Below are positions 58,668-59,420 of a DNA stretch of 64,000 bases, piece after piece. The stretch spans positions 1,240,001 to 1,304,000 of the forward strand of contig NZ_CP082249.1 in NCBI RefSeq assembly GCF_019879105.1, written 5' to 3'. Within the stretch, counting starts at the first letter, position 1. Each line of letters starts with the position of its first letter. This DNA comes from Natrinema sp. SYSU A 869 (GTDB taxonomy: Archaea; Halobacteriota; Halobacteria; Halobacteriales; Natrialbaceae). Under the pieces are notes generated by a model, which ran no database searches, was not told the DNA's origin, and was given only the letters and a program-made list of their open reading frames with translations. A program made the translations under genes and the position numbers.

Positions 58668-58877
58668 TCAGAGCCGACGGGCTTCGCCGGGTGTGAGTCG
58701 ACAACCGCAGGGGCCCGCGACGTGGGTCATCGGCCCTCGAGACGTAACCGTGACAACCCGATCATCGCAGTGGGGACACGGCGGAAAGCTCGAGTGGCCG
58801 TCCGACGCAGCGTCGTCGGCGTCGGTGGACGCATCCGTGGCGACGGGCTCGGACGCGTCCGAATCGCCGTCGGTCAC
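58668..58877 (-). CDS. Small zinc-ribbon protein, unknown function
   Basis: 69 aa: an acidic Asp/Ser/Ala-rich N-terminal half, then CPHCDDRVVTVTSRGPMTHVAGPCGC, two Cys pairs spaced as a zinc ribbon. Typical of the many haloarchaeal zinc-ribbon microproteins. Function not known. Confidence 0.6.
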   Translation of the reverse strand: MTDGDSDASEPVATDASTDADDAASDGHSSFPPCPHCDDRVVTVTSRGPMTHVAGPCGCRLTPGEARRL

Positions 58878-58979
58878 TGTAGCGCTCCGTCGGGGGTTGG
58901 GTGTTGGCTCGAGCGTGGACGGTGCTGACGGTACTGCTGTCGTGCGAGACGTTTATGTCTCGGTAGAATGAACTGAATC

Positions 58980-59105
58980 ATGGCTTCGGAGCTGCACGCT
59001 TGGAAGCCACGTCTCGGGTGCTGCAACACCCGGGGCATTTCGACGCATGCCCCTCGTGGTGGTTTCGGAAACGTCGCTTCCATCGATATAGTGTCTGTAG
59101 TGTAA
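58980..59105 (+). ncRNA. Candidate structured RNA, or leaderless 41-aa microprotein
   Basis: A TATA-like GTTTATG (58951-58957) is 26 nt upstream of position 58980. The sequence folds on paper: TGGAAGC (59001-59007) pairs with GCTTCCA (59076-59082); inside, CACG (59008-59011) pairs with CGTG (59055-59058), closing two hairpins, CGGGTG/CACCCG (59015-59032) and GGGCAT/ATGCCC (59033-59052). An ATG exactly at 58980 also opens a 41-codon frame (MASELHAWKPRLGCCNTRG and onward). Both readings are by eye; no known RNA family is recognised. Confidence 0.35.
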
Positions 59106-59260
59106 CTTATATCTACTGGAATTATTGGTCCCCGAGGGTCTGAGCGGGTCTGCTCGAGCCGATCGCAACCGTTTGTCGATGAGAATGTGGGTCCGTGACG
59201 GGGGCTCGAGGAATTCGAGGGGTTTATCTATTCCCGAGGGGAACTGTGGGATGCGTACGA

Positions 59261-59361: not shown

Positions 59362-59420
59362 GTGGACTCGCCGAACATCGCAAACCCTTCGGGTTTGCTC
59401 AATCCCGGCGAGCCCACTAT
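59362..59420. repeat. Imperfect copies of the tRNA-Ala 3' end (possible attachment-site scar)
   Basis: GTGGACTCGCCG at 59362-59373 is the exact reverse complement of the tRNA 3' end (59322-59333). TCAATCCCGGCGAGCCCACT at 59399-59418 is a direct copy of the last 20 or so bases with one deletion and one change. Between them is a perfect hairpin GCAAACCC-TTC-GGGTTTGC (59380-59398). Tandem tRNA-end copies are expected at integration sites. Confidence 0.55.

Follow-up and report, generated by a model that had tools for sequence, protein, structure and literature searches.

The locus under study occupies positions 58980-59083 of the window (the whole stretch of 64,000 nucleotides that was analysed), and is one of 22 copies of a small two-strand module in the genome of Natrinema sp. 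SYSU A 869. On the minus strand a transcript, predicted to begin at about 59083, crosses a structured region to the ATG at 58981, where a leader ORF opens that runs into the gene of a zinc-ribbon micro-protein. On the plus strand an RNA is predicted to run across the same region in the opposite direction. The preliminary description was confined to the plus strand, and overlooked the minus promoter and leader, the zinc-ribbon gene, the multicopy nature of the module and its hypervariable loop. The features are as follows.

58945-58950 and 58957-58962, plus strand: inverted repeat (CGAGAC / GTCTCG) around the plus TATA box
58952-58957, plus strand: TATA box of the plus RNA, TTTATG, 28 nt ahead of 58980
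58980-59083, plus strand: predicted antisense RNA with hairpin H1 (58981-59009) and the 10-bp hairpin H2 (59011-59036); its 3' end may extend further right
59106-59111, minus strand: TATA box of the sense transcript, TATAAG, with a predicted start at about 59083
58979-59083, minus strand: structured sense leader with closing helix 59002-59007/59076-59081, hairpin A (59032-59053) and hairpin B (59015-59032)
58981-59009, minus strand: alternative hairpin of the sense leader, abutting the start codon
59021-59026, both strands: hypervariable loop and proposed determinant of specificity (plus-strand sequence CTGCAA)
58874-58981, minus strand: leader ORF of 35 aa, beginning MIQFILPRHKRLARQ, with its ATG (58981) beside the hairpin and its TGA at 58874-58876
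58668-58877, minus strand: zinc-ribbon micro-protein of 69 aa, CPHC-x19-CGC, with a GTG start (58877) that overlaps the leader-ORF stop

In this copy a longer minus-strand ORF (58874-59083) is open as well, from an ATG at the predicted 5' end (59081-59083) across the leader as far as the stop of the leader ORF, but it is probably a coincidence, since the lengths of the copies vary. At 59398-59420, about 85 nt past the tRNA-Ala gene, part of the tRNA's 3' end is repeated (AATCCCGGCGAGCCCACTA), as happens when an element integrates into a tRNA.

The module is an order-wide haloarchaeal element without a counterpart in Rfam, in which a covariance search with 58850-59260 gave no match even at E-values up to 10. 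At the DNA level, 61 related genomes were searched, and single genomes proved to have as many as 13 or more repeats of the stretch. A covariance model was built from 38 copies (its E-values are rough), and with this model the 22 copies of the source genome were located on three replicons, comprising the chromosome and large secondary replicons; there is also a weak 23rd row, on the other strand, which overlaps a copy already counted. Five other Natrialbaceae carry 10-30 copies each, and one genome from another family carries 33. Matches to the model were obtained in 142 of 392 Halobacteriales genomes, representing 54 of 95 genera, and in a draw of 197 genomes from the phylum all nine genomes with matches were Halobacteriales. 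Hosts identified by an exact-core scan of GTDB species include Natrinema, Natrialba, Halovivax, Halostagnicola, Halopiger, Natronorubrum and Natribaculum, among others. No annotated feature was found beneath the module matches in plasmid records.

Recent copies on the two large secondary replicons of the source genome (L032-L036, L038, L039, L042) have a unit of roughly 500-600 bp in common, and some of them also a downstream ORF; the route of duplication is not evident. In some genomes the copies are arranged in short tandem series, 1.5-2.4 kb apart (L047; G282:C1:1570915-1574252), and in L047 a gene resembling an HTH regulator lies between two tandem copies. A bridge-RNA or omega-RNA reading was set aside, as no recombinase or TnpB recurred in the inspected flanks.

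The promoter-like box that the preliminary description placed at the right distance from 58980 is kept by the relatives: of 76 copies, 66 have a TTTATA-like box whose position is exactly -28, and the inverted repeat around it varies symmetrically among copies (CGGGA/TCCCG). On the minus side a TATAAG-like box is present in 64 of the 76 copies, nearly all at -30/-31 from GGAAG, whereas shuffled sequences would be expected to give 5.8; the conserved motif at the right edge of the module (CTTATANCTACTG) is this minus-strand TATA box. With TATA boxes at fixed spots on both strands, the two predicted RNAs overlap across the whole module, so that at the promoter level the arrangement would be that of a cis-antisense pair with fully overlapping transcripts. 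In one distant genus (G391) the opposite promoter would fall in the coding region, and its TATA box is poor (TTACAT).

The two strands fold differently. The minus strand of the window segment forms a three-way junction (z -4.06) that none of 200 shuffles could equal. For the plus strand the folding energy is -52.7 kcal/mol (z -2.9), a value that 199 of 200 shuffles fail to reach, and this strand is tuned for the hairpin at 58981-59009 plus the 10-bp hairpin at 59011-59036, not for the three-way junction. Across 216 aligned copies 93.1% of the cells in the plus helices are paired, with 97 double-change cells against 24.3 in shuffles. In the minus-leader helices 92.2% are paired, with 52 double-change cells against 14. 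These counts are not independent events, since the copies are related. The compensatory changes of both structures also exceed slid controls. Covariation among relatives is thus abundant while the 41-aa plus-strand frame is not conserved, and the proposal of a structured RNA new to Rfam is borne out. The nested closing stem and two hairpins described earlier do exist (GGAAGC 59002-59007/GCTTCC 59076-59081, 59011-59036 and 59032-59053), but the three-way fold assigned to them belongs to the opposite strand.

Wobble pairs indicate which strand each structure serves. In 101 copies the plus-strand helices contain 270 G-U against 21 A-C cells, whereas the closing helix and the hairpin at 59032-59053 contain 30 G-U against 77 A-C, favouring the minus strand. 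Because an A-C combination on one strand reads as a G-U wobble on the opposite one, each set of helices is adapted to its own strand. The segment GGAAGC is used by both folds, and the closing helix and the start-codon hairpin are therefore mutually exclusive; from this anatomy the leader is predicted to be a switch.

The leader ORF ends 4-14 nt inside the zinc-ORF start despite variable leader lengths, and its stop overlaps that start in 151 of 154 copies with a zinc ORF, compared with 7 of 308 for the other two frames. The zinc ORF (CPxC-x19-CGC) adjoins 157 of the 216 copies but only 2 of 326 random sites, and a dN/dS of 0.25 marks its predicted product as a zinc-ribbon micro-protein under purifying selection. 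The product is acidic and not a membrane peptide. No Pfam, NCBIfam or PADLOC family was found above cut-off, and a sequence search against solved structures gave generic zinc-finger matches only. The zinc motif is absent beside 59 of the 216 copies (inspected in part), and some copies without the zinc ORF are followed by other small cysteine-rich ORFs, coupled likewise. In the distant genus a different micro-protein (48 aa, CPVCG) comes directly after the leader, with a 185-aa protein behind it; the covariance model matches leaders of this type in antisense orientation to their gene, as it should for the module. One genome of this type carries more than 30 copies of the CPVCG micro-protein with the 185-aa gene (L316-L335; MTLPLFQFRN..., no Pfam match), and many of these second genes appear broken or shifted.

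The loop at 59021-59026 combines strict length with extreme variation. In 159 copies it is always 6 nt (111 copies) or 7 nt (48 copies) long, and 97 distinct sequences were counted. Among 10 recent, near-identical paralogues from the same genome its diversity reaches 0.57 per site; the zinc gene has 0.05, the spacer 0.10, and the stem and the plus promoter have zero. The distant genus exhibits the same pattern (0.70 in the loop, 0-0.008 in the stem, 20 of 20 loops distinct) and has two further variable tips. A pseudoknot of the loop with other variable tips was considered and rejected, as inspection by eye gave no consistent complementarity.

All 22 loops of the source genome are distinct. When pairs of copies at least 90% identical outside the loop were compared, the loop was shared by 1 of 78 pairs within genomes and by 20 of 124 pairs between genomes (Fisher p 6e-4, the pairs not being independent). 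Neutral drift would be a poor account of this pattern. The hypervariability itself could be partly mutational. Reverse complements are frequent among the loops (18 against 3.4 expected for 6-mers). Exchange of loops by simple inversion was rejected as an explanation: the close pairs give one inversion, which is not above expectation, and the mechanism is not shown. Strict length and copy-specific sequence are properties of the kissing loops of antisense pairs such as RNAI/RNAII and CopA/CopT. As far as can be read from the alignments, both RNAs of the module would likewise be structured and carry complementary recognition loops that diversify.

Taken together, we consider it probable that the module is a cis-encoded sense-antisense pair with orthogonal kissing loops, which controls the translation of a micro-protein operon. 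The minus strand would give an mRNA consisting of the three-way-junction leader with its alternative start-codon hairpin, the leader ORF and the translationally coupled zinc-ribbon micro-protein, and the plus strand a structured antisense RNA that begins at the leader-ORF start codon and spans the whole leader. The two RNAs would make first contact via the complementary hairpin loop of 6-7 nt, from where pairing would spread and block or destroy the leader, leaving the leader ORF, and hence the micro-protein, untranslated. Loop diversification would let every one of the 20-30 copies in a cell respond to its cognate antisense RNA alone. What we infer from the sequences is that both strands are transcribed, that the RNAs pair, that the leader is repressed and that independence of the copies is the cause of loop diversity. 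Against this reading stand the poor opposite promoter of the distant genus, the copies without a zinc motif and the phylogenetic non-independence of the pair counts.

A special case of this sense-antisense reading would be a type I toxin-antitoxin family, in which the micro-protein is toxic in excess, the plus RNA serves as antitoxin and the copies are selfish or stabilising. The layout, with an antisense RNA over the leader and a leader ORF coupled to the product, is like that of hok/mok/sok (PMC4147584), the module is multicopy on chromosome and large secondary replicons, and uniqueness of the loops within a genome is what addiction would favour. However, the putative toxin is an acidic zinc-ribbon protein and no membrane peptide, and in Haloferax volcanii several one-domain zinc-finger micro-proteins act in stress adaptation, biofilm formation and swarming (PMC6562870). 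We regard the toxin-antitoxin case as conceivable but doubtful. The same tentative standing is given to a broader proposal, namely that the module may represent the first archaeal family resembling type I toxin-antitoxin systems, in which a genome has dozens of mutually orthogonal pairs that each possess a separate kissing loop, derived from or ancestral to a PhiH-type antisense immunity switch and maybe doubling as an anti-halovirus repertoire.

Diverse loops within one genome could also belong to a repertoire for antisense immunity that arose from switches of PhiH-type viruses or plasmids and whose plus RNAs act in trans on incoming elements with matching leaders. Related leaders do occur beside PhiH1-repressor-like genes on plasmids: three of nine such loci (L340, L343, L345) have a strong leader match beside the repressor (E 3e-12, 6e-12 and 7e-11), and the remaining six have a similar leader, judged by eye. 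Furthermore, the antisense RNA T(ant) contributes to PhiH immunity (PMC4284463). On the other hand, a pure repertoire would have no need of the sense promoter and coding unit that every copy retains, and no copies were found in IMG/VR using exact core patterns or in phage records using blastn. We consider such a repertoire unlikely.

Alternatively, the minus strand might act alone, as a leader-only translational switch of riboswitch or attenuator type, with the plus TATA box being incidental or an operator and the loops varying as hypermutable hairpin tips. In line with this, the leader is the most widely shared part of the module, present even where the plus promoter is weak, and its closing helix and start-codon hairpin exclude each other. 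But the wobbles specific to the plus strand (270:21) and the invariant plus TATA box require a plus RNA, and hypermutation leaves both the difference in loop sharing between and within genomes and the fixed loop length of 6-7 nt unexplained, making this alternative improbable. Finally, the 41-aa leaderless micro-protein that the preliminary description offered as its second reading can practically be discarded, since the frame at 58980-59105 is open in the source copy but a 41-aa ORF occurs in only 9 of 216 copies, with neither length nor frame conserved and the frame of the 3' block random (86/69/61).

Among the earliest antisense cases described in Archaea is the control of a leader in a single virus, work on which ended in 1994 (PMC6210493). 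More than 20 independent copies per genome across much of the order would make this viral mechanism testable in chromosomes. The module family would also be a natural source of orthogonal RNA pairs, and would account for a group of small zinc-ribbon genes, most of them unannotated. The uniqueness of loops within a genome raises the question why cells need independent copies, be it for addiction, immunity or parallel switches.

Several known systems resemble the module in part. CopA/CopT and RNAI/RNAII are sense-antisense pairs in which kissing loops of 6-7 nt set specificity and diversify while the stems are conserved; unlike the module, they are bacterial, control plasmid replication rather than a micro-protein operon, and do not occur in tens of copies per genome. 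The zinc-finger micro-proteins of Haloferax volcanii resemble the zinc ribbon in being mostly under 70 aa with paired C(P)xC motifs (PMC6562870, PMC11241148), but no antisense leader was found reported for them.

Among type I toxin-antitoxin systems, the antisense RNA of hok/mok/sok blocks a leader ORF coupled to the product and acts in cis over a structured leader (PMC4147584), and Ibs/Sib consists of repeated loci, each with its own RNA. Both are bacterial with membrane toxins, and no sequence relation to the module is claimed. By its layout the module would place an antisense RNA over the leader and start of a small-protein mRNA, as type I systems do. Type I toxins are usually small hydrophobic membrane peptides, with SymE and RalR as exceptions (PMC4147584). 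Since the product of the module is no such peptide and its toxicity only a conjecture, membership in type I cannot be claimed.

The closest layout is found in the Halobacterium virus PhiH1. The preliminary description stated that no known archaeal RNA class came to mind, and had thereby missed the T1/T(ant) antisense pair. PhiH1 differs from the module in being viral and single copy, and in having a PadR-like gene rather than a zinc ribbon after the leader; no conserved repressor neighbour was found beside the Natrialbaceae copies. The matches of the covariance model to the viral leaders are weak (PhiCh1 E 3e-4, PhiH1 only E 0.3), and common descent with the viruses is therefore not proven. 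At the plasmid PhiH1-like repressor loci L344 and L346-L350 an ORF with a conserved beginning (MRNERSRG...) starts from the ATG that follows the leader, and several of these records lack an annotated gene at this ATG. In the PhiH1 record the mapped starts of T1 (38582) and T(ant) (38732) stand face to face, as predicted for the two starts of the module; they lie 150 nt apart, and T(ant) begins at the base before the first-gene ATG (38733). The T1 leader follows the same three-segment pattern (AGAGCAGG, CCTGCTC, AGAGC-ATG), and T4 starts at the first bases of a leader with a three-way fold and a 7-nt loop hairpin (both by eye). In PhiH, T(ant) opens T1 to cleavage that removes the ribosome binding site (PMC4284463).
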